A stretch of DNA of 41,284 nt from Syntrophomonadaceae bacterium (GTDB taxonomy: Bacteria; Bacillota; Syntrophomonadia; Syntrophomonadales; Syntrophomonadaceae). Shown in pieces: positions 2,708 to 41,284 of this stretch. Under the pieces are notes generated by a model. It worked only from the letters and a program-made list of their open reading frames with translations, had not been told where the DNA came from and did not search any database. The DNA lies in NCBI GenBank assembly GCA_014360155.1, contig JACIYB010000004.1, positions 1 through 41,284 of the forward strand, read 5' to 3'. Every line of letters begins with the position of its first letter. Position 1 is the stretch's first letter. The position numbers and the translations under genes were made by a program.

Positions 2708-3009
2708 TTCAAAACCCCCACTTTCCCCAAATTAACCAACTCGATCAGTGTTAAAACGATTGCCTTGTCCATCATTGCCCTGCGCTCCTCTCGTGATAGG
2801 TTTTTGCCGTTGCCAGCCTCGTGATGGCATGTAGAACAGATGGCTGCTGAGGCGCAATCCGCTGTTTTTTGCCCCATTCCTTTGCCTTCGTCTCGGTGAG
2901 CTGCTTCGGTGCCGTACGCACCGCACAACACGCAGCATTCGATGGAGCGAACGGCGGCCAGCCATTTGGGGTTTCGATAGGGGGTTTGACGTTGCAGCAA
3001 ATCTCTCAT
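2704..3009 (-). CDS. Zinc-binding HNH-like nuclease domain protein
   Basis: A 101-aa protein with paired metal-ligand motifs: CCVLCG (residues 26-31), then AAH, GKGMGQKTADC and CSTCHHEAGNG. The C..C - H - C..CH arrangement resembles the small phage HNH-like family I know as DUF1364, found among ninB-type recombination genes. It directly follows the NinB-like gene with an overlapping ATGA, which supports a role in recombination or Holliday-junction processing. Activity cannot be judged from sequence. Confidence 0.6.
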   Translation of the reverse strand: MRDLLQRQTPYRNPKWLAAVRSIECCVLCGAYGTEAAHRDEGKGMGQKTADCASAAICSTCHHEAGNGKNLSREERRAMMDKAIVLTLIELVNLGKVGVLK

Positions 3010-3512
3010 CGCCCCGCCCCCATTGCTTCGCGACGCGTCCTAAATCGGCCCATAGCTTTGGCGTAGATATCTTCCGGGTACTGCAAGCGCGCGCCGATGT
3101 TCCCCGCGACCTGTTCGAGTTCATTGAGGTATATCGTGAAGTGCTCAACCGACAGATCGGCGGTACTGGCGGCCTTTTCGAACGCAGCCCAGTCGTTCGG
3201 GTAAAGCTCGGATAATTCGAACAGTCTGGGCGCGTGCGGGTAATCCTCCGGATAGCAGCACATCAGTGGCAGCAATCGGCTTTTCTTCATCAGCGAATGC
3301 ATTCCGTCCTTGCCGTCGCCGGTATAACTGCCCATGGTTTCGAGCCACATCCACATCAGCGCGTTTTGTGCATTTGAGCGCGTGATGGTCTTGGGCTTGG
3401 GCTTTTGTCGACTCACGGTGATATACAGCGGAACCGATACATCCGCGTTGCGCACTTCTTGCGCGAAAGCATCGCGCTCCCGTGGGTTTGTGATTGTGTG
3501 GAGGCCGTTCAT
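3006..3512 (-). CDS. NinB-like recombination protein
   Basis: A 168-aa protein with the tract TRSNAQNALMWMWLETMG (about residues 44-61), which matches the 'R..QN...W..L' signature near the N-terminus of lambda NinB (Orf). NinB binds single-stranded DNA and acts as a recombination mediator with the phage annealing protein. Here Bet and exonuclease are in the other early operon. The C-terminal basic tail (GRFRTRREAMGAGR) fits nucleic-acid binding. The assignment is moderate; only the motif and neighbourhood support it. Confidence 0.55.
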   Translation of the reverse strand: MNGLHTITNPRERDAFAQEVRNADVSVPLYITVSRQKPKPKTITRSNAQNALMWMWLETMGSYTGDGKDGMHSLMKKSRLLPLMCCYPEDYPHAPRLFELSELYPNDWAAFEKAASTADLSVEHFTIYLNELEQVAGNIGARLQYPEDIYAKAMGRFRTRREAMGAGR

Positions 3513-3763
3513 ACAAAATCATCCCCATCAATCCGCCGCTGGATGATGTGCTTCAGGTTTTCGGCCATTCCGAGTTGTAAAAGAAGATCACCCGACCCGG
3601 TGTAGTGGTTTCCGTGATCGCCATTCGCCAGCGTATAAACGGCGGTTAATTCGATCAACTCGCCGCTTTCCGCCATATCGAGCATTCGGCGCAGGCGGTC
3701 AATGGCTTGCTGGTTCGTGGCGACGGTTGGCGTGGTTAATTTGATTGTCTCTTGAGTGCTCAT
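3509..3763 (-). CDS. Hypothetical protein (84 aa)
   Basis: No family recognised. The central part (AIDRLRRMLDMAESGELIELTAVYTLANGD) has the rhythm of a small alpha-beta protein: an amphipathic helix followed by beta strands. It overlaps both neighbours by 4 bases, so it is an integral member of the early operon. No cysteine clusters, membrane segments or HTH are seen. Confidence 0.65.
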   Translation of the reverse strand: MSTQETIKLTTPTVATNQQAIDRLRRMLDMAESGELIELTAVYTLANGDHGNHYTGSGDLLLQLGMAENLKHIIQRRIDGDDFV

Positions 3764-10369: not shown

Positions 10370-10585
10370 ATGAAGATCAAATTTTATGGATTTTTAAGCA
10401 TTGAAGTGGCACTCGCTGCCGTGCAACGCAATGGCTACGCGCTCCAGTACGTCCCCGAATCGCTGATGACCGAGCCAGTGGCACTCGCTGCCGTGCAACG
10501 CAATTGCGACGCGCTCCAGTACGTCCTGAATATCGATTTGTTTAAGCGGATTGCGGATGCTTTGTCGATTGATATTGAGATTTAA
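10370..10585 (+). CDS. DUF4116-like repeat protein (71 aa)
   Basis: Two copies of the motif PVALAAVQRN..ALQYV (about residues 12-28 and 36-52), the pattern of DUF4116 repeats that form short helical arrays. The two copies are nearly identical at DNA level. DUF4116 repeats occur mostly in large proteins of unknown function, so a two-repeat phage version is small. It is flanked by untranslated stretches on both sides, unlike the tightly overlapping neighbours. Confidence 0.65.
   Translation: MKIKFYGFLSIEVALAAVQRNGYALQYVPESLMTEPVALAAVQRNCDALQYVLNIDLFKRIADALSIDIEI
10406..10526 (+). repeat. Two tandem 49-bp near-identical repeats, 72-bp period
   Basis: Bases 10406-10454 and 10478-10526 match at all but two positions and are 24 codons apart, so the duplication keeps the reading frame. 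Near identity of synonymous sites points to a recent duplication. Confidence 0.85.
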
Positions 10586-10802: not shown

Positions 10803-11189
10803 ATGAACATTGATGATTTAACTATTGGTCAAGCGCGTGAATTGGCTGCGTTGTTTTCGGCAACGAGTGTGCAGCAGTGCGCTCAATCCATGGGGGGAAT
10901 GATTGACAAGAAAGTAATCATTCGCACCTATTCCGCTGGCGTGTTTTTTGGCGTTCTGGCTGAAAAAGCAGGCAGTGAGGTGATTCTGAAATCAGCTCGT
11001 CGTATGTGGCAATGGAAGGCTGAAAAATCAATCAGCTTGTCTGGCTGCGCGATTTACGGGATTGATGAAAGTGCAAGCCGAATCGCTCCGGCTGTTGATT
11101 CGATTTGGCTTGAAGCAATTGAAATCATCCCATGCACGGAAGTGGCCATTGAAAGCATCGAGGGCGCGAAAGATGCCAAAGCTCAATAA
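10803..11189 (+). CDS. Conserved phage protein, DUF6948-like
   Basis: A 128-aa protein with the core VIIRTYSAGVFFGVLAEKAG then EVILKSARRMWQWKAEKSIS and LSGCAIYGI, matching a small phage beta-rich family I recall as DUF6948. The function is unknown. The ATG at 10803 follows AGAGG; an upstream in-frame start at 10764 lacks one. Relatives often end in a Gly-Tyr/Ser/Asp repeat tail. Here that tail lies in a separate, overlapping frame starting at 11173, so the two may be a split version of one protein. Confidence 0.65.
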   Translation: MNIDDLTIGQARELAALFSATSVQQCAQSMGGMIDKKVIIRTYSAGVFFGVLAEKAGSEVILKSARRMWQWKAEKSISLSGCAIYGIDESASRIAPAVDSIWLEAIEIIPCTEVAIESIEGAKDAKAQ

Positions 11190-11448
11190 ACCAGAAGTCT
11201 CCGGCGACGGCTCCGGCTCCGGCTCCGGCTCCGGCGACGGCTACGGCGACGGCTACGGCTACGGCTACGGCTACGGCGACGGCTACGGCTACGGCTACGG
11301 CTCCGGCGACGGCTACGGCTCCGGCGACGGCTCCGGCTCCGGCTACGGCTACGGCGACGGCTACGGCTACGGCTACGGCGACGGCTACGGCGACGGCTCC
11401 GGCGACGGCTCCGGCGACGGCGACGGCGACGGCGACGGCTACGGCTGA
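11173..11448 (+). CDS. Gly-Asp/Ser/Tyr repeat protein (91 aa)
   Basis: After MPKLNKPEVS the product consists solely of G-D, G-S and G-Y dipeptides, ending at a TGA. It is encoded by about 40 hexamers. The ATG lies 17 bases inside the DUF6948-like gene in the +1 frame, with GAGGG upstream. It could be translated on its own or fused to that gene by frameshifting. Such low-complexity Gly/Tyr/Ser chains are typically disordered and can self-associate; what this one does is unknown. Confidence 0.6.
   Translation: MPKLNKPEVSGDGSGSGSGSGDGYGDGYGYGYGYGDGYGYGYGSGDGYGSGDGSGSGYGYGDGYGYGYGDGYGDGSGDGSGDGDGDGDGYG
11203..11445 (+). repeat. Hexanucleotide array GGC-(GAC/TCC/TAC)
   Basis: Forty uninterrupted hexamers of GGCGAC, GGCTCC or GGCTAC plus a final GGC, all in the 11173 reading frame. 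The unit order is irregular. Only the second codon varies, in its first two bases, always ending in C. Such arrays change length readily by slippage. Confidence 0.95.
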
Positions 11449-11790
11449 ATCAATGCCGACTGACCGCCGCAAGCGGTCGACCGTAACGGGGAGTGATCTG
11501 GAGCCAGTAACGCCGTCCCAGATCATTCCACCGATGCGGTGAACGCGCAGGCTGATGCGCGAATTGAATCTTTGCTTTGCCGCAAAGGGAAGAAATTCTT
11601 TGTTTGAAATGACACTTGGCTCGGGCAGCCGCTGTTTTGCGCGTACACATGTCGACGTGTGGTTTGAAACGGAAAACAAGAGTCCACAACCAAGATGCCG
11701 GAGATCAGCACCGGCCACCGCATCACTTATACGAGAGCGTATTCCATGCACGAATGCGCTCCCCGATGACAAATCCATAGGAGAAATGTG
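11449..11790 (+). ncRNA. Hairpin-rich noncoding region upstream of bet (candidate structured RNA)
   Basis: A 342-base stretch with no supported gene but six clear stem-loops: GACCGC/GCGGTC (11462-11478), TGATCTGG/CCAGATCA (11494-11525), CGCGCA/TGCGCG (11544-11561), CTTTG/CAAAG (11575-11587), CACATG/CGTGTG around a TCGA loop (11646-11661), and the 10-bp GAGCGTATTC/GAATGCGCTC (11735-11761). The last sits just before the bet ribosome site. The density of perfect stems suggests a structured RNA or a long regulatory leader. No known RNA family is recognised. Confidence 0.45.
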
Positions 11791-12612
11791 ATGACCAAAG
11801 AAATTGCTTTAGCCGGAAACAGAGCGCAGTTGGTGAAAGTGCTCCAGTCCAGCCTCTATGTTGGCTCAAAGGACGAATCCGTTGAAATGGTTCTGGACTA
11901 CTGCGAAGCAGCCGGTTTCGACCCAATGCAGAAGCCAGTCCATATCGTGCCAATCAATGCCAAAAACCCAGTCACAGGCAACTACGAGTGGCGCGATGTG
12001 GTAATGCCAGGCATCGGCCTCTATCGAATCCAGGCGGATCGCTCAAAGTCATTGGCTGGCATTTCTGAACCCGTTTTCGGGGAAATGATTCGCCGCGATT
12101 TCCGCGATAAGAACGGGAATGCCGTATCTGTGACCTTCCCTGAATGGTGCAGCGTGACAGTCAAAAAGCTCGTCGGTAATCACATCGTGGAATTCACCGC
12201 GAAGGAATACTGGGAAGAAAACTACGCCTCCGACTCAGGCAAGAGCGATGCCCCCAATTCAATGTGGCGCAAGCGTGTTCGCGGACAAATCGCCAAGTGC
12301 GCTGAGGCCCAAGCTCTTCGCAAGGCATTCCCTGAAGTTGGTAATGCACCGACTGCCGAAGAAATGGAGGGCAAAACACTTGAATCTCAAAGTCAGCCTT
12401 TGCGCCGAATTGAGGCAGAGCCACAGGAATATTCCCAAGAAGAATTCGACCAGAAGGTCGGCCAGTGGGAAGGAATCATCAGATCTGGCAAGCATTCGGC
12501 AAACAGCCTGATCGCCCAGATCGAGAGCAAGGGCAAATTTTTCACCATGGACCAGAAGATGACCCTTGCGTCTTTCGAGGTTCCAGAAGCACAGGTTGAG
12601 GAGGTTGAGTGA
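11791..12612 (+). CDS. bet: Single-strand annealing recombinase, Bet/RecT family
   Basis: A 273-aa protein with the Bet-family core: LYVGSKDESVEMVLDYCEAA, FDPMQKPVHIVPI, DVVMPGIGLYRIQADRSKS and AGISEPVFG. Bet coats single strands exposed by the phage exonuclease and anneals them to complementary DNA. The partner exonuclease is encoded at 13852, separated by an HNH gene and its insert. The ATG at 11791 is placed by AGGAG 8 bases upstream; the GTG at 11788 is less likely. The stop overlaps the start of the HNH gene (TGATG). Confidence 0.9.
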   Translation: MTKEIALAGNRAQLVKVLQSSLYVGSKDESVEMVLDYCEAAGFDPMQKPVHIVPINAKNPVTGNYEWRDVVMPGIGLYRIQADRSKSLAGISEPVFGEMIRRDFRDKNGNAVSVTFPEWCSVTVKKLVGNHIVEFTAKEYWEENYASDSGKSDAPNSMWRKRVRGQIAKCAEAQALRKAFPEVGNAPTAEEMEGKTLESQSQPLRRIEAEPQEYSQEEFDQKVGQWEGIIRSGKHSANSLIAQIESKGKFFTMDQKMTLASFEVPEAQVEEVE

Positions 12613-13593: not shown

Positions 13594-13852
13594 CAATGGA
13601 GATAAGCACGACAACAGAATCGCAAATTTGCGGACAGCCACACCCCAGCAAAACCAAGCGAACAAAAGAAGAAACAAAGGGAAATCAACGCCAAAAGGTG
13701 TTCGGCTGCTTCCTAGTGGCCTTTATCAATCCCGAATAACGATAAATGGGAAACAGTTGTCTCTAGGGTCATTCAGAACCCATCAGGACGCAAGCGCAGA
13801 GTACATGAGAGTTGCCAAATCACACTACGGCCAATACGCGAGGGCTGACTAA
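13583..13852 (+). CDS. HNH-AP2 endonuclease, C-terminal half (split gene)
   Basis: From a GTG at 13583 the product reads MRHNNGDKHDNRIANLRTAT, then a linker and an AP2-like DNA-binding module GVRLLPSGLYQSRITINGKQ, LSLGSFRTHQDASAEYMRVA. It lacks the N-terminal strand and first His-containing motif, which are at 12612-12839. The GTG overlaps the end of the 13387 gene, so it may be translated as a separate polypeptide. Its stop overlaps the exonuclease ATG (TAATG), showing that the HNH gene was once fitted precisely between bet and exo. Confidence 0.75.
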   Translation: MRHNNGDKHDNRIANLRTATPQQNQANKRRNKGKSTPKGVRLLPSGLYQSRITINGKQLSLGSFRTHQDASAEYMRVAKSHYGQYARAD

Positions 13853-15510
13853 TGAAAATTCACGAACTAATTCAGGGAAGCGCCGAATGGCACGCATTCC
13901 GCGCCCATCATTTCACCGCCAGCGATGCGCCTGCAATGATGGGCAAGTCGAAATACAAGACACGCGCCCAACTGCTTCACGAGAAGGCGACCGGCATCAT
14001 TGAAGAGGTTGATGCGGCAACGCAGCGCCGTTTTGATGATGGCCACCGCTTCGAGGCTTTGGCTCGTCCATTGGCCGAGGCCATCATTGGCGATGACCTT
14101 TATCCGGTTGTCGGCTCAGAGGGCAAATACGGCGCGAGCTTTGACGGACTAACGCTTGGTCATGATGTCAACTTCGAGCACAAGACGCTGAATGCCAATA
14201 TTGCTGAATGTGCAGTTGCCGATGATCTGGACGAGCAATACCACATCCAAGTCCAGCATCAGATGATGGTATCCGGTGCCGAACGCACCCTGTTCATGGC
14301 TTCGCGCTGGGATGAAAACGATCAACTCATCGAGAAGGCCGAATTCTGGATCGAGCGCGATGACAAACTCATCGCAGAAATTGCGGCTGGATGGGTGCAA
14401 TTCGAAATTGATCGGGATAACTACGTTGCGCCGGTAATCGTCGAAAAGCCAAAAGGCGAAGCCGTGCTCGACTTGCCCGCGGTCATGGTCCAGGTTTCCG
14501 GTGATATCGCCATCACCGACAACCTGGATAAGTTCACCACCGCGCTCAAGACGTTTGTCGATGAAAAGCTGATCAAGAGGCCTGAGAGCGATCAGGATTT
14601 CGCGGATCTGGAATCACAGATCAAGACGCTCAAAAAGGCCGAGGAAGCGCTGGATTCCGCCGAAGCCAATATGCTGGCCCAAGTCGATTCCGTAGACACA
14701 GCCAGGCGCATGATTGATCTGGCGCGGAATCTGGCGCGTGATAACAGACTGATGGCCGAGAAGCTCGTTAAATCCGAGAAAGAGCGCATCAAAACCGATC
14801 GAATCATGTTGTCGCGCAATCAGTTCATGGATCACATTTCGGCGCTCAATGCCGAGATCAGTCCGGTGAAGATCGAAGGCGTAACACCTGATTTCAACGG
14901 TGCCGCGAAGAACAAGCGCACCATGTCGAGCCTTTACGATGCGCTGGACACCGAACTCGCCCGCGTCAAGATCGAAGCCGACGCACAAGCAAAGTGCATT
15001 AGAGCAAACCTTAATCACCTATCTAAGCATGCAGAATATCGGTTCCTATTTAACGACCTGGCGACTATTGCGCATAAGCCAAACGATGACTTTGCCGCGC
15101 TGGTATCGCACCGCATAAGCGAACACAAGCAGGCGGAAGAGGTGCGACTTGCCTCCGATCGCCAGCGAATGCAGCAACAAGCCGAAGCCGACGCGCGCGC
15201 CAAGATTGAAGCAGAGCAGCGCGAGGCTGATCGCGAAAAGGCCGAAGCCGGCGCGCGCGCCAAAGTCGAGGCCGAAAAGGTCACTGAGCATCCAGAAGCC
15301 GCCGATATCGCACGCACGATCATCGACAGCGCTCCGGATATCGCCAAGCGTAGCGCCGCACCCGAAAGCGAAAAGCTGCACACAACCACCATCGTGATTG
15401 AGCACTGGTACAGCGACGGCCTGGTGCTTGCCAATCTCAAACAGCTACTCGAAGAGCGCGGTTTCCCCGTGAAGTCGGTTCGCGTGGCTGAGCAGGAGGT
15501 TGAGGCATGA
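13852..15510 (+). CDS. YqaJ-type recombination exonuclease with long C-terminal extension
   Basis: The N-terminal 190 residues are a YqaJ/lambda-exo-like 5'-3' exonuclease: EWHAFRAHHFTASDAPAMMG, RRFDDGHRFEALARPLAE, ASFDGLTL, then FEHKTL and QVQHQMMVSG, giving the D...E-x-K and Q-x-x-H catalytic pattern. It pairs with Bet for double-strand-end recombination. Beyond residue 200 it is unusually long (552 aa). It has a helical section like DUF1351 (LESQIKTLKKAEEALDSAEA) and a charged Ala/Glu/Arg coiled coil (AEADARAKIEAEQREADREK). The fusion suggests extra partner binding. Confidence 0.85.
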   Translation: MKIHELIQGSAEWHAFRAHHFTASDAPAMMGKSKYKTRAQLLHEKATGIIEEVDAATQRRFDDGHRFEALARPLAEAIIGDDLYPVVGSEGKYGASFDGLTLGHDVNFEHKTLNANIAECAVADDLDEQYHIQVQHQMMVSGAERTLFMASRWDENDQLIEKAEFWIERDDKLIAEIAAGWVQFEIDRDNYVAPVIVEKPKGEAVLDLPAVMVQVSGDIAITDNLDKFTTALKTFVDEKLIKRPESDQDFADLESQIKTLKKAEEALDSAEANMLAQVDSVDTARRMIDLARNLARDNRLMAEKLVKSEKERIKTDRIMLSRNQFMDHISALNAEISPVKIEGVTPDFNGAAKNKRTMSSLYDALDTELARVKIEADAQAKCIRANLNHLSKHAEYRFLFNDLATIAHKPNDDFAALVSHRISEHKQAEEVRLASDRQRMQQQAEADARAKIEAEQREADREKAEAGARAKVEAEKVTEHPEAADIARTIIDSAPDIAKRSAAPESEKLHTTTIVIEHWYSDGLVLANLKQLLEERGFPVKSVRVAEQEVEA

Positions 15511-27325: not shown

Positions 27326-28968
27326 CGGTGCGCCCCTGCGGTGTTACGCGCCAACTGCTGCGCTACATGCGCCTGTGCCTTTTCCACTTCCTTGGCGGTC
27401 AGTTTGGGGTCGGTGGATCGCACGTTGATCGTGGTGTTGATGTTTTGGGCGATACCCATCCGGCGCGGGACTTCTTCGCCATAGTTGCCGGGTGACTCAT
27501 AATCCCGCGTAACGATTTCATTTAGTCGCGCCAGATTATGCGGATTTGCCTGCATCTTCTTCCATTCGGGCCGGTGTTTGATTTCCCATGCCGCGAAGTC
27601 AAGCTGATCGTTTACGTCCGCAGCCTGTAACGGGAACCCCATGTGCTTCATAAATAGGGCTTGGCGCGTCTTATCCCATTGGACCAATCCAAGATGACCT
27701 TGGTTGTGCGCATGAGGGTTAAACGATGACTCTTGTTGCATACTCGCGGCCATTGCCACGGCCTGCTCTCTAGTTAACCCATTAGCCATTAACCGCGCGA
27801 CCGCATACCTACTCTTTTGCCGAAGCGCATAGGTATTTGCGGCTGTTTTCTGCTTCTCAAGCGCAGCTTTTCCCGCATCTATATCGCTTTGTTTTCGAGG
27901 GAAGTCCATGCCATCGGCGCTTTTCTGCTTCTCAAGCGCAGCTTTTCCCGCATCTATATCGCTTTGTTTTCGAGGGAAGTCCATGCCATCGGCGCTTGAT
28001 GTTGGATTCAGCGCGGGGCTATAAGCCAATCCGCCGACAAGAGCGCCGAGCGGGCCAAGCCAGCTAACTCCGGCGACCTCTGCCGCTGTCAATCCACCGG
28101 AAGCAGCCGAAGCAGCCGCTCCACCGTAGATCAGCCTTTTAGCCAGCCCGAGCGCAACCATGCCCGCGCCAACTTCAGCGAGTGGCGGCGCAATGACGGA
28201 AAACTCCCCGATCAGCTTATTAAGCCAATTGTTATTATCGGCCATCAACAGATTGGACTTCTCAAGTGTCTTGTTGAGAATTTCCATCGGTGTGAGTTCT
28301 GCCGTGGCTTTATCCCCTTCGATATAAGCACCGGCAAGCCGATACTGATTCATTACGGCGTGGCCTTTTGCGCCAGCCTTGTCCATGCTGTTGCCTTCGG
28401 CTGCGCGGTACTTGTCGAGAGCAGCGCCGAACCCCTTTTGCCGCATTGCCAGCTCGGTGTTTTCATCAATGCCGAGCATTTCAGCGTACTGCTTGGCCTG
28501 GTACTGCGGCATTCCCTGGAATGCGTGCGCCAGATCCTTCATGATCGCAACAGTGTCGCGTGCGTGGCCCTTGTTGTCTTTCAGCTTGATACCGATTGAC
28601 GACAGGAATGCACCGGAGCCGGGATTGTTCCGAATAAACCCGGCAACACCTTCAAGTGATCCTTGCGCGCCGCCAGCCGACGAGCCGAAAGATGCCGCTG
28701 CTTTTTGCAGGGCGATAAGATCCGCGATATGCGTGCCAGTCCGGTTTGCCGCAAAACCAAGCTGCTCCATGCTGCGTGCGTAGTTAAGTGTGCCTTTCGC
28801 GGCAACCAGCCCCATTGCACCCAATGCCGCAGCCGCCTTCAATGATGTTTTTGCAAAGCTACCAATCTTGGACTCGGTGGTTTTTACGCCGTCGAGCAAG
28901 CGCCGCTGGCTGGCTTCGTCCTGCTGATATTTCAGCGAGACTAAAAACTCTTGAAGGGTATCAGCCAT
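27322..28968 (-). CDS. Tape measure protein with C-terminal tail lysozyme domain
   Basis: A 548-aa tape measure, short compared with most, consistent with a short tail. The N-terminal part is helical with TKTSLKAAAALGAMGLVAAK-like amphipathic stretches. A hydrophobic segment lies near the middle (GPLGALVGGLAYSPALNPTS). The C-terminal third has the phage tail lysozyme pattern LTREQAVAMAASMQQESSFN then LGLVQWDKTRQALFMKH, with Glu in QQESSF as likely catalytic residue. It would digest peptidoglycan during injection. A perfect 75-bp duplication lies between the two parts. Confidence 0.88.
   Translation of the reverse strand: MADTLQEFLVSLKYQQDEASQRRLLDGVKTTESKIGSFAKTSLKAAAALGAMGLVAAKGTLNYARSMEQLGFAANRTGTHIADLIALQKAAASFGSSAGGAQGSLEGVAGFIRNNPGSGAFLSSIGIKLKDNKGHARDTVAIMKDLAHAFQGMPQYQAKQYAEMLGIDENTELAMRQKGFGAALDKYRAAEGNSMDKAGAKGHAVMNQYRLAGAYIEGDKATAELTPMEILNKTLEKSNLLMADNNNWLNKLIGEFSVIAPPLAEVGAGMVALGLAKRLIYGGAAASAASGGLTAAEVAGVSWLGPLGALVGGLAYSPALNPTSSADGMDFPRKQSDIDAGKAALEKQKSADGMDFPRKQSDIDAGKAALEKQKTAANTYALRQKSRYAVARLMANGLTREQAVAMAASMQQESSFNPHAHNQGHLGLVQWDKTRQALFMKHMGFPLQAADVNDQLDFAAWEIKHRPEWKKMQANPHNLARLNEIVTRDYESPGNYGEEVPRRMGIAQNINTTINVRSTDPKLTAKEVEKAQAHVAQQLARNTAGAHR
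27846..27995. repeat. Perfect 75-bp tandem duplication in the tape measure gene
   Basis: Units 27846-27920 and 27921-27995 are identical, adding 25 residues (SADGMDFPRKQSDIDAGKAA plus LEKQK) in frame. Complete identity indicates a recent event. In a tape measure, extra residues can lengthen the tail if they fall in the length-determining region. Confidence 0.95.
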
Positions 28969-39118: not shown

Positions 39119-41284
39119 GTTCCTAGATTTGCGCCGCCGATAAGTTCACTGAACGCACGGCTTAATGCGTCGATCTGGTCATCGAATGAACCGTTTGGGA
39201 ACATCCGCATTTCGTTGATAAGTTGGTCGTTCCAGTCGCCGCGCAGAATCATTACGTTGCCTGCGTTGATCTGGGCGGCCAGTGGTTCGGCGCGTGTCAC
39301 CTTGTCGCCGGACTCCGGCGATGACCGCACACGAAACCCAGACAACTGCCGAGTCAGATACAAAACCTGAGTCTTGCCCGCCTGACCTGGATCTTGAGGA
39401 ATGCTCAACGGACATAAAGCGCCATCACGTCGAGCGGTATTCAGAATCGCCGCATCACGTTCATCAGGGCCGCATCGGACCCGCACCATGTCAGCGATGA
39501 CGAAGCGGCCATCTGGCAACTTCCCGATCTTGCCGCCCGCTGTCCAGTCGCCGTCAGTGGTTGACGCCAAATCCCAGCCACGCATCCAGGTGATTTGTCC
39601 GGCTGGTAGTGCGTCGATCGTCACCAGGTTGTCTGGCTTGATTACGCCGCCTTCTGCTGGGGCTGGTCGCTGCTGATATTGCCCCGCGAATGTGTACGGG
39701 CTTGCATCCTGCATCCGGCGTAAATCGTCGGCTGTGTGCTTATCAGGCCACAGCGCAGAGCCATCGTCGCGCAATGCCGACAAGCAGATATGATCCCACT
39801 GCTCGCCGTTTCCACCCTTGAGCAGCCATCCGCTCAGGTCATCCTCGTGCAATCGCTGCATGATCAGGATGATCGGGGTTTCCGGTGAGTTCTTCCGGCT
39901 TTCGAGCGTGTTCTGGAACCACTCGATGACGTTTGCTCGCATCACATCGGATCGGGCTTCGTCAGCCTTGTGTGGGTCATCGATCAGGATGCAATTTTTG
40001 ACCACCAAACCGGATTCGATGGTAAAATTATGATAATCATCAACGGTCAAGCAAAAGGTCACATCATCATGCCGAACGCGCTCAACGAGAACTGGCTTCC
40101 GGTACCCGGATATGAAGGGTTCTATTCCGTCAGCGACCACGGAAGGGTCAGAAGCGAAAGCCGGATGATCACCAATGCCGGAAGTGGCTATTCTTATACG
40201 CAGCCCGGAAAGCTGCTCAAGCCGAGCCGGGAAGGTAGCGGGCACGTCCGCGTCAGCCTGTCCAGAAAATCCAAGATCAGCTATACGTCTGTTCACTCGC
40301 TTGTGATGCTGGCCTTCGTTGGCGAGCGCCCGGAAGGTGCGGACATTTGCCACACCGACGGAAACCCCGCGAACAACAGACTCACCAACCTGCGATACGA
40401 CTCGCGCAGATCTAACATCATCGACAGCCAGCGGCATGGCACTTTCAGCGAGGCCGAAATCCACCCCGCCGCCATGCTCACCAACGACCAGGCATTGGCC
40501 ATCTACAACACTGTCGGCATAGCTGCCAACGATCTGGCTGCGCAATATGGCGTCTGTGCCGCCGTCATTAATCAAATCTGGCGCGGCGACACATGGAAGT
40601 CCGTCACAGGCGGAAAGCCCGTGATCGGAAGTCGAGGCGAGAAGACCTACCTCAGAACCATCTTGACCAAAAGCCATGCTGACTTCGCCATCGCCAACAG
40701 GGCCAACCGAACAGGACGGAAGGACGGGCGCGGGATCAAGCCCACCGCTTCCGCGCTTGGGGTTGATGCCGACGTGATTAAGACCCTGTATGCCGCCATT
40801 GACGCGGGGAAGGCAATCATCTACGCCGAGTGAATCAGCGCGCACCCATCCTCGGTTTGTCCAGAACCTGTGGTCTTGGGTGCACTCGACAATCGCGCCA
40901 TCGTCAAACGTCACGCGCCAAATATCGTTTGGCGGATTCTCGTGCCACGCAACCACCGGACGCAGAGCCATCCCGCCAGCGTAATCAAATGCCCAGACAT
41001 TGATTGTCATGCGCTCGCGCACGATGCGATCAATCGGTATCAGACCACTTTCTGTCCAAACTCGCGTTCCAACCGGAAAGCACCCGCCAAAGCCATCACG
41101 ATGCTTGCCAGCGCCATAGCCGGTAATCGTGCCACCAGAGCCAGCGGCATAAACCACGCCACCGGCTGATGTTTTCCATTCATCCTTGGCTTTGCTGTCG
41201 CCGCGCAGCATCACATCAGGAAATATCGCCTGATATGCTGGATGCTGCGACAGTTCGCGCGCCTGCCATGAGTTATTGGCCGCA
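39100..41284 (-). CDS. terL: Terminase large subunit, C-terminal part, containing an intein
   Basis: Continuation of the gene that starts at 396. From 41187 it reads KDEWKTSAGGVVYAAGSGGT, then GAGKHRDGFGG, and is interrupted by an intein (39994-41082). It resumes with C-ILIDDPHKADEA, the Walker B motif of large terminases. The nuclease half follows (MRGWDLASTTDGDWTAGGKI, then DGRFVIADMV, and a final MFPNGSFDDQIDALSRAFSE), giving the Asp residues expected of the RNase-H-like fold. Without excision the ATPase would have 363 residues between the coupling Gly-rich loop and Walker B, so packaging must depend on protein splicing. Confidence 0.93.
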   Translation of the reverse strand, partial: AANNSWQARELSQHPAYQAIFPDVMLRGDSKAKDEWKTSAGGVVYAAGSGGTITGYGAGKHRDGFGGCFPVGTRVWTESGLIPIDRIVRERMTINVWAFDYAGGMALRPVVAWHENPPNDIWRVTFDDGAIVECTQDHRFWTNRGWVRADSLGVDDCLPRVNGGIQGLNHVGINPKRGSGGLDPAPVLPSCSVGPVGDGEVSMAFGQDGSEVGLLASTSDHGLSACDGLPCVAAPDLINDGGTDAILRSQIVGSYADSVVDGQCLVVGEHGGGVDFGLAESAMPLAVDDVRSARVVSQVGESVVRGVSVGVANVRTFRALANEGQHHKRVNRRIADLGFSGQADADVPATFPARLEQLSGLRIRIATSGIGDHPAFASDPSVVADGIEPFISGYRKPVLVERVRHDDVTFCLTVDDYHNFTIESGLVVKNCILIDDPHKADEARSDVMRANVIEWFQNTLESRKNSPETPIILIMQRLHEDDLSGWLLKGGNGEQWDHICLSALRDDGSALWPDKHTADDLRRMQDASPYTFAGQYQQRPAPAEGGVIKPDNLVTIDALPAGQITWMRGWDLASTTDGDWTAGGKIGKLPDGRFVIADMVRVRCGPDERDAAILNTARRDGALCPLSIPQDPGQAGKTQVLYLTRQLSGFRVRSSPESGDKVTRAEPLAAQINAGNVMILRGDWNDQLINEMRMFPNGSFDDQIDALSRAFSELIGGANLGTWAKLA
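39998..40028 (+). promoter_or_regulatory. Candidate promoter for the antisense endonuclease
   Basis: TTGACC (39998-40003) and TAAAAT (40023-40028) are 19 bp apart, a little long for sigma70. The predicted start near 40035 is upstream of the ATG at 40069 and of AAAAGG (40053-40058). The whole element lies in the DNA coding for intein blocks F and G. Confidence 0.45.
40069..40833 (+). CDS. NUMOD4-HNH homing endonuclease encoded antisense within the terL intein
   Basis: A 254-aa nuclease on the strand opposite to terL. Domains in order: NUMOD4 (ENWLPVPGYEGFYSVSDHGR, residues 7-26), HNH (VHSLVMLAF and ADICHTDGNPANNRLTNLRY, about 75-110, with His95 and Asn103/Asn107), a NUMOD1/HTH-like module (AMLTNDQALAIYNTVGIAAN, 135-178) and a final helical segment with another HTH-like pattern (KPTASALGVDADVIKTLYAA). 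I chose the ATG at 40069: it has AAAAGG upstream and yields the normal NUMOD4 start. ATGs at 40030 and 39970 are in frame, but the first coincides with the likely transcription start and the second lies in the extein. Codons of the two genes are exactly complementary, codon on codon. It presumably cuts intein-free terL alleles and thereby spreads the intein. Confidence 0.9.
   Translation: MPNALNENWLPVPGYEGFYSVSDHGRVRSESRMITNAGSGYSYTQPGKLLKPSREGSGHVRVSLSRKSKISYTSVHSLVMLAFVGERPEGADICHTDGNPANNRLTNLRYDSRRSNIIDSQRHGTFSEAEIHPAAMLTNDQALAIYNTVGIAANDLAAQYGVCAAVINQIWRGDTWKSVTGGKPVIGSRGEKTYLRTILTKSHADFAIANRANRTGRKDGRGIKPTASALGVDADVIKTLYAAIDAGKAIIYAE
41188..41284. repeat. Terminal overlap, copy 2
   Basis: Identical to bases 1-97 except A at 41250 (T at 63). 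It marks the circular junction inside terL. Confidence 0.9.

Follow-up and report, generated by a model that had tools for sequence, protein, structure and literature searches.

The window (the whole stretch of DNA analysed, 41,284 nucleotides) appears to be essentially the whole of a tailed phage of the contractile type, about 41 kb in length. Its genes include those for terminase, portal, head protease, major head protein, sheath, tape measure and baseplate, and its ends carry a 97-bp direct repeat with one mismatch (1-97 and 41188-41284), as would be expected if the phage assembly were circular or terminally redundant. The tape-measure gene contains a 75-bp sequence twice in tandem, without mismatch (27846-27997). 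Our subject is a pair of overlapping genes (Table 1), just downstream of a small ORF with DUF4116-type repeats (10370-10585).

The first gene is a clear member of Pfam family PF22253, a domain (DUF6948) that Pfam names without a function (E 1.2e-30; 105.9 bits against a gathering cut-off of 27). Its start is most likely ATG 10803 and not ATG 10764, which would give 141 aa, because relatives align from the motif MNIxDLTIG and AGAAGAGG precedes ATG 10803. The second gene translates as MPKLNKPEVS-(GX)40-G-stop (91 aa). That is, its ATG and a ten-residue lead are followed by 40 GGC-NNC hexamers and a closing GGC TGA. The X residues are Tyr (16, TAC), Asp (14, GAC) and Ser (10, TCC); all 41 Gly codons are GGC and all 40 X codons end in C. 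Four successive GGCNNC hexamers match 37 times across the window, every time within the array, and never in 100 dinucleotide shuffles; Tandem Repeats Finder reports period 6 and 40.8 copies. The preliminary description of this DNA, an uninterrupted array of 40 hexamers coding only Gly-Asp, Gly-Ser and Gly-Tyr with every variable codon NNC, is thus exact by translation. The overlap that it saw, in the +1 frame, with a 'DUF6948-like' gene is also borne out, since the upstream ORF belongs to PF22253 and the two genes share 17 nt. As the start codon of the Gly-X gene lies inside the end of the DUF6948 gene, translational coupling is likely. Promoter and terminator searches gave nothing exceeding chance, and a PDB search with the Gly-X chain returned weak low-complexity matches only.

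Table 1. Features of the two-gene locus and of its recombination neighbours in the window
Feature	Position	Strand	Basis
DUF6948 gene (PF22253), predicted Sm/LSm-like small beta-barrel, 128 aa	10803..11189	+	Pfam; AF2; Foldseek; start from relatives
(Gly-X)n polymer gene, X = Tyr/Asp/Ser	11173..11448	+	translation; partner ORF in 104/112 DUF6948 loci
Uninterrupted GGC-NNC hexamers, n = 40	11203..11442	+	translation; pattern count vs shuffles
17-nt overlap of DUF6948 gene and Gly-X gene (likely translational coupling)	11173..11189	+	sequence; same ATG geometry (-16) in 46 loci
RecT-like single-strand annealing protein gene (neighbour, outside the module)	11788..12612	+	Pfam RecT E 2.4e-21; phrog_2449 E 3.2e-88
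RecE-like exonuclease gene (neighbour)	13852..15510	+	phrog_7655 E 1.1e-159; YqaJ

The pairing of the two genes extends far beyond this phage. We assembled 112 DUF6948 loci from IMG/VR (77), phage records and GTDB genomes (19), with hosts of many phyla; the GTDB relatives came from a profile search of genome contigs with closer sequences. Translation past the DUF6948 stop revealed a (Gly-X)n ORF in almost every case, and under one common rule such an ORF adjoins DUF6948 in 104 of them. Three of the remaining eight are cut by a contig end and five were scored absent: two with degenerate Gly-X chains (L072, L094), one with a short remnant only (L250), one truncated (L246), and one, in phage ctRVW222 (L229), where the Gly-X gene sits 5' of DUF6948. 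A reverse scan of IMG/VR that made no use of DUF6948 (thirteen successive GGNNMY hexamers, exact pattern) yielded at least 107 loci with Gly-X ORFs passing a residue filter, and 88 of these had at least 300 nt upstream and could be assessed. Among the matches listed, a DUF6948-superfamily gene immediately precedes the array or shares its ORF in 80 of the 88, and it directly follows the array in two loci (L108, L163). DUF6948 and Gly-X genes therefore form a conserved viral two-gene module and are almost always adjacent. That their products act together is strongly indicated.

Individual loci add further detail. When relatives were sought for the ctRVW222 locus, in which the Gly-X gene comes first, none turned up. 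There the DUF6948 CDS (MW202478.1 1505-2077) is annotated from a start farther 5' and so crosses the Gly-X array in a different frame; the deposited protein therefore probably has a false N-terminus. Three loci (L108, L143, L150) hold tandem clusters of about five Gly-X genes each; in L108 and L150 the clustered genes have near-identical ends and differing arrays. In six loci from Bacteroidota and Clostridia (L198, L206, L247, L251, L252 and L256, the last at 2785-3546) the Gly-X stretch runs on, in the same ORF, into a domain of about 150 aa (..VDGIPTIIKNV..FAHGETL..WHHxLTGSC..GRxxF..) that has no Pfam or NCBIfam name, and in L206 and L163 a DUF7666 domain precedes the Gly-X stretch.

The preliminary description had proposed that the array may be a detachable tail of the DUF6948 protein, reached by frameshifting. 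Its link between the two genes is real, conserved and two-sided (104/112; 80/88 among the matches listed), but not in that form. The +1 overlap in the window and two fusion-like cases (see below) would suit a programmed frameshift from DUF6948 into the Gly-X frame, yet the Gly-X frame is +1 in 59 loci and -1 in 36. The start lies at -16 from the DUF6948 stop in 46 loci, at -12 in 28, and at -7, -3, +2 and others elsewhere; the ORF usually has its own ATG near that stop (eight loci lack one), and the array is sometimes upstream of DUF6948. Instead of a constant frame relation without an independent start, we find both frames, varying offsets and separate start codons, so that a frameshift product is very improbable. 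The preliminary description had also suggested looking for fused DUF6948-tail proteins in relatives. One locus (L129) has an in-frame fusion at the DNA level, and it is the only one; but the fused ORF differs from its own downstream second copy, which is ordinary, by 8 nt at the junction, and in two relatives (L270, L271) the genes are separate. The fusion may be an accident of one 8-nt indel, and we have downgraded it as proof of partnership. PHROG 18306 (242 positions) is better evidence for a fused form: it appears to be a natural Gly-X/DUF6948 fusion, because the profile is matched by Gly-X arrays (56-159) and, separately, by DUF6948 (153-231) from several phages.

Within an array the codons are nearly constant (a median of 100% for the Gly codon and 98% for the third base of X). 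Between arrays they are not: Gly is GGC, GGT, GGG or GGA, and X is NNC or NNT. All codon classes encode mainly Gly-[Asp/Ser/Tyr/Asn], the rarer classes being represented by few arrays each. Since this comparison used a residue filter and a pattern favouring those four residues, it was repeated on DUF6948-anchored arrays without the residue filter. In 97 distinct arrays downstream of DUF6948, X is Ser in 31%, Tyr in 25%, Asp in 22% and Asn in 6% (about 85% for the four), a figure that includes a few probable wrong-frame picks (Gly-Met, Gly-Thr), which lower the share. Ala makes up less than 1% of X across arrays, and Leu, Ile, Val, Pro, Thr and Arg are rare though reachable via NNC. The alternative frames of the arrays contain stops in 45 to 199 of 212. 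Because different Gly codons and third bases give mainly the same residues, selection must act on the protein: it maintains the Gly-[DSYN] pattern at that level. Net charge is not conserved (-0.24 to +0.07 per residue), and DNA mimicry is therefore unlikely as a general role of the chain.

These codon data also bear on whether the hexamers are a DNA-level element, such as an iteron, a packaging or recombination site, or an operator bound by DUF6948, with the open frame as a by-product. The regular 6-bp period beside replication and recombination genes would fit, as would the homogeneous third base and Gly codon within each array. However, GGT, GGG, GGA and NNT arrays elsewhere share no DNA motif and still encode mainly the same amino acids, the rarity of residues that NNC could supply points to selection on residues, and the ORF usually brings its own ATG. 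With codon classes encoding mainly the same residues, we rule this reading out for practical purposes and leave it a slight chance at best.

The arrays change very fast in length and order. Phages Ymer and Amona are 100% identical over 1000 nt 5' and 400 nt 3' of the gene, and their arrays have 29 and 26 units in a different order. Across the eight phages of the Ymer/Setonix group, arrays range from 21 to 39 units and the orders are mostly different. Neisseria gonorrhoeae carries the DUF6948/Gly-X pair three times per chromosome (L254-L255, L263-L268, L243); the 5' flanks of these prophage copies are 99.8-100% identical and their arrays vary in multiples of 6 nt. On the 3' side of DUF6948, 17 of the 77 IMG/VR contigs break off within 400 nt, against 2 of 77 on the 5' side. 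The comparison of array lengths that had been suggested earlier thus gave a clear answer, namely differences in 6-nt steps between otherwise identical phages. It agrees with the original idea that slippage or recombination expanded the array while the chain was under selection, as the Gly-[DSYN] pattern is kept across codon sets; the outcome in relatives was the opposite of unrelated, out-of-frame arrays. A neutral microsatellite, open in one frame by chance, could likewise change length rapidly in 6-nt steps and have homogeneous codons. It would not be expected to occupy the same place and encode the same residues, with different codon sets, in phages of many phyla, and we consider it the least credible of the explanations discussed here.

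The module sits among early DNA-metabolism genes, outside the tail and capsid block. Its neighbours in the window are RecT, HNH and RecE; in other phages, within about 4 kb, they are Erf, Bet, RecT, exonucleases, SSB, DnaB, NinB and NinG. Query genomes aside, DUF6948 was absent from 150 kin genomes and 398 genomes of the host phylum, as well as from 368 genomes in the class to which N. sicca belongs and 294 in that of a Bacteroidota genome. Its near-absence from bacterial genomes at large is consistent with a phage gene. The phage contig has 54% G+C (39-50% in sampled contigs of the same bin), and, given also the absence of DUF6948 from the 398 other genomes of that phylum, it may be mis-binned. 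The gene context speaks as well to a structural polymer, in which the chain would build silk-like material or polyglycine sheets in the virion or at the cell surface. Such a material would account for the richness in Tyr and Ser and for a strict Gly alternation like that of the Bombyx fibroin heavy chain. Yet the module lies with early genes and not in the structural block, and the shortest arrays have only about 12 units; we hold this use of the chain to be improbable.

For the DUF6948 protein itself, an AlphaFold2 model (60 sequences in the alignment) reached pLDDT 92.1 and pTM 0.76. Among the matches listed by Foldseek against the PDB, every one is a chain of Sm, LSm or archaeal SmAP type or a complex that includes such chains (probability 0.99-1.00; E about 1e-3 to 9e-3; TM-score about 0.4 by query and about 0.7 by target). 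A sister family, modelled separately, again matched mostly Sm/LSm proteins, plus a few others. For the N-terminal helix and strongly bent five-stranded barrel that characterize Sm/LSm proteins, the analysis offers confident models of two homologous families whose matches are almost all Sm/LSm (probability 1.00), at E values of only about 1e-3 and TM-scores of about 0.4-0.7. In a structure search of viral models the best matches were DUF6948 itself, with some 'Sm-like' proteins further down. The sister families, to which some of the upstream genes of the reverse scan belong, are homologous to DUF6948 (hhalign probability 97, E 3e-11), the Pfam DUF6948 profile reaches only 5 of their 19 genes, and their motifs are 'VVxDRGxxxxG' and 'GTTKGLGEL'. 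LSM sequence profiles gave no LSM family match at E<=1 in 58 members; the SM-ATX profile matched 3 of the 58 weakly (best E 0.019), and a PDB sequence search with DUF6948 gave no meaningful match. As a predicted shape the Sm-like fold is well supported; Sm/LSm membership and ring formation are putative.

Taken at about even confidence, our preferred explanation is that DUF6948 is an Sm-like nucleic-acid-binding protein and that the Gly-X gene supplies its tail, a co-translated, hypervariable and disordered chain encoded separately. The biochemical function that we infer would run as follows. The first gene would give a small Sm-like barrel protein and the second an intrinsically disordered chain in which Gly alternates with Ser, Tyr, Asp or Asn, residues that are small and polar, acidic or aromatic. 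On RNA or single-stranded DNA, DUF6948 could form a ring like those of Sm proteins and Hfq, and act in the early replication and recombination programme. The Gly-X chain would bind the barrel as a low-complexity tail provided in trans, and might modulate nucleic-acid exchange or form condensates. Tails of this general kind exist: the C-terminal tails of Hfq are Gly-rich or acidic, and that of SmD1 is Gly-Arg. If the chain is disordered, its length and order would hardly matter, and composition and Gly spacing would. Slippage, and perhaps also the phage recombinase if it anneals at the microhomology between hexamers (a speculation), could then reshuffle the array freely, because a tail working through composition would tolerate any order. 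The broader form of this proposal, a widespread phage system of an Sm-like ring and a separate hypervariable Gly-X polymer selected only for composition and Gly spacing, seems to us evenly balanced between right and wrong.

The main rival is counter-defence or host takeover with diversifying selection, because it too predicts hypervariability. Here the effector could be the Gly-X chain, which would bind a host factor or defence protein as its target, with DUF6948 as the chaperone or partner that delivers it and an arms race driving diversification. The extreme variation of arrays among contigs, among prophage copies and among sister phages whose flanks are identical would suit such a role, as would the early-gene location and the tandem clusters of about five arrays in three loci. 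On the other hand, composition is kept while order is free, which fits an unconstrained order as well as it fits diversifying selection; PADLOC gave no match, and the same residues recur in arrays of phages with very different hosts. We regard this alternative as rather unlikely, though clearly less so than the others.

Returning to the separately encoded tail, its parts are of known kinds, and comparison with known systems shows where the module departs from them. Beyond what Pfam holds on DUF6948, we add the Gly-X partner, the predicted Sm-like fold and the sister families. PHROG 18306 resembles the module in that its profile has a Gly-X-like region and, after it, a DUF6948-like one; it differs as an apparent Gly-X-first fusion, the separate two-gene form being commoner, and has no function or description. 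The predicted fold recalls Sm/LSm proteins including Hfq and SmAP, some of which have disordered Gly-rich or Gly-Arg tails. DUF6948, in contrast, has no LSM profile match and is phage-borne, and its putative tail is a separate, hypervariable and mostly neutral-to-acidic Gly-X gene. Silk fibroin likewise has Gly in every other position and contains Ser and Tyr, and the Bombyx heavy chain shows strict Gly alternation, whereas Gly-X chains are almost without Ala, Asp-rich, short and in an early-gene context, with neither homology nor GAGAGS/GAGAGY blocks found. Diversity-generating retroelements, too, vary codons in phages while leaving the third base fixed. In the Gly-X arrays, however, the residue set is restricted, variation comes by unit shuffling and length, and no reverse transcriptase appears beside the arrays in the phage annotations or among the neighbour families listed.

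In open-access papers, our literature search found no mention of DUF6948 and none of the typical array strings, and the word 'glycine' is absent from the Ymer phage paper (PMC11445585). No function is assigned to the module in Pfam, NCBIfam, PHROGs or PADLOC. It therefore appears to be new, in that no system pairing these parts was found described in the open-access literature. If the proposal is true, DUF6948 and PHROG 18306 would be tied to a partner gene that is annotated as 'hypothetical protein' or missed, and a new early-phase phage function would stand beside the recombination genes. In many phages an Sm-like protein would have a low-complexity tail that is detachable and that shifts in sequence between sisters while its composition stays constant. 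Low-complexity sequences would then be evolving rapidly next to an unchanging folded partner, and nature would be running, on a large scale, an experiment on what selection sees in disordered chains: order, length or composition alone.
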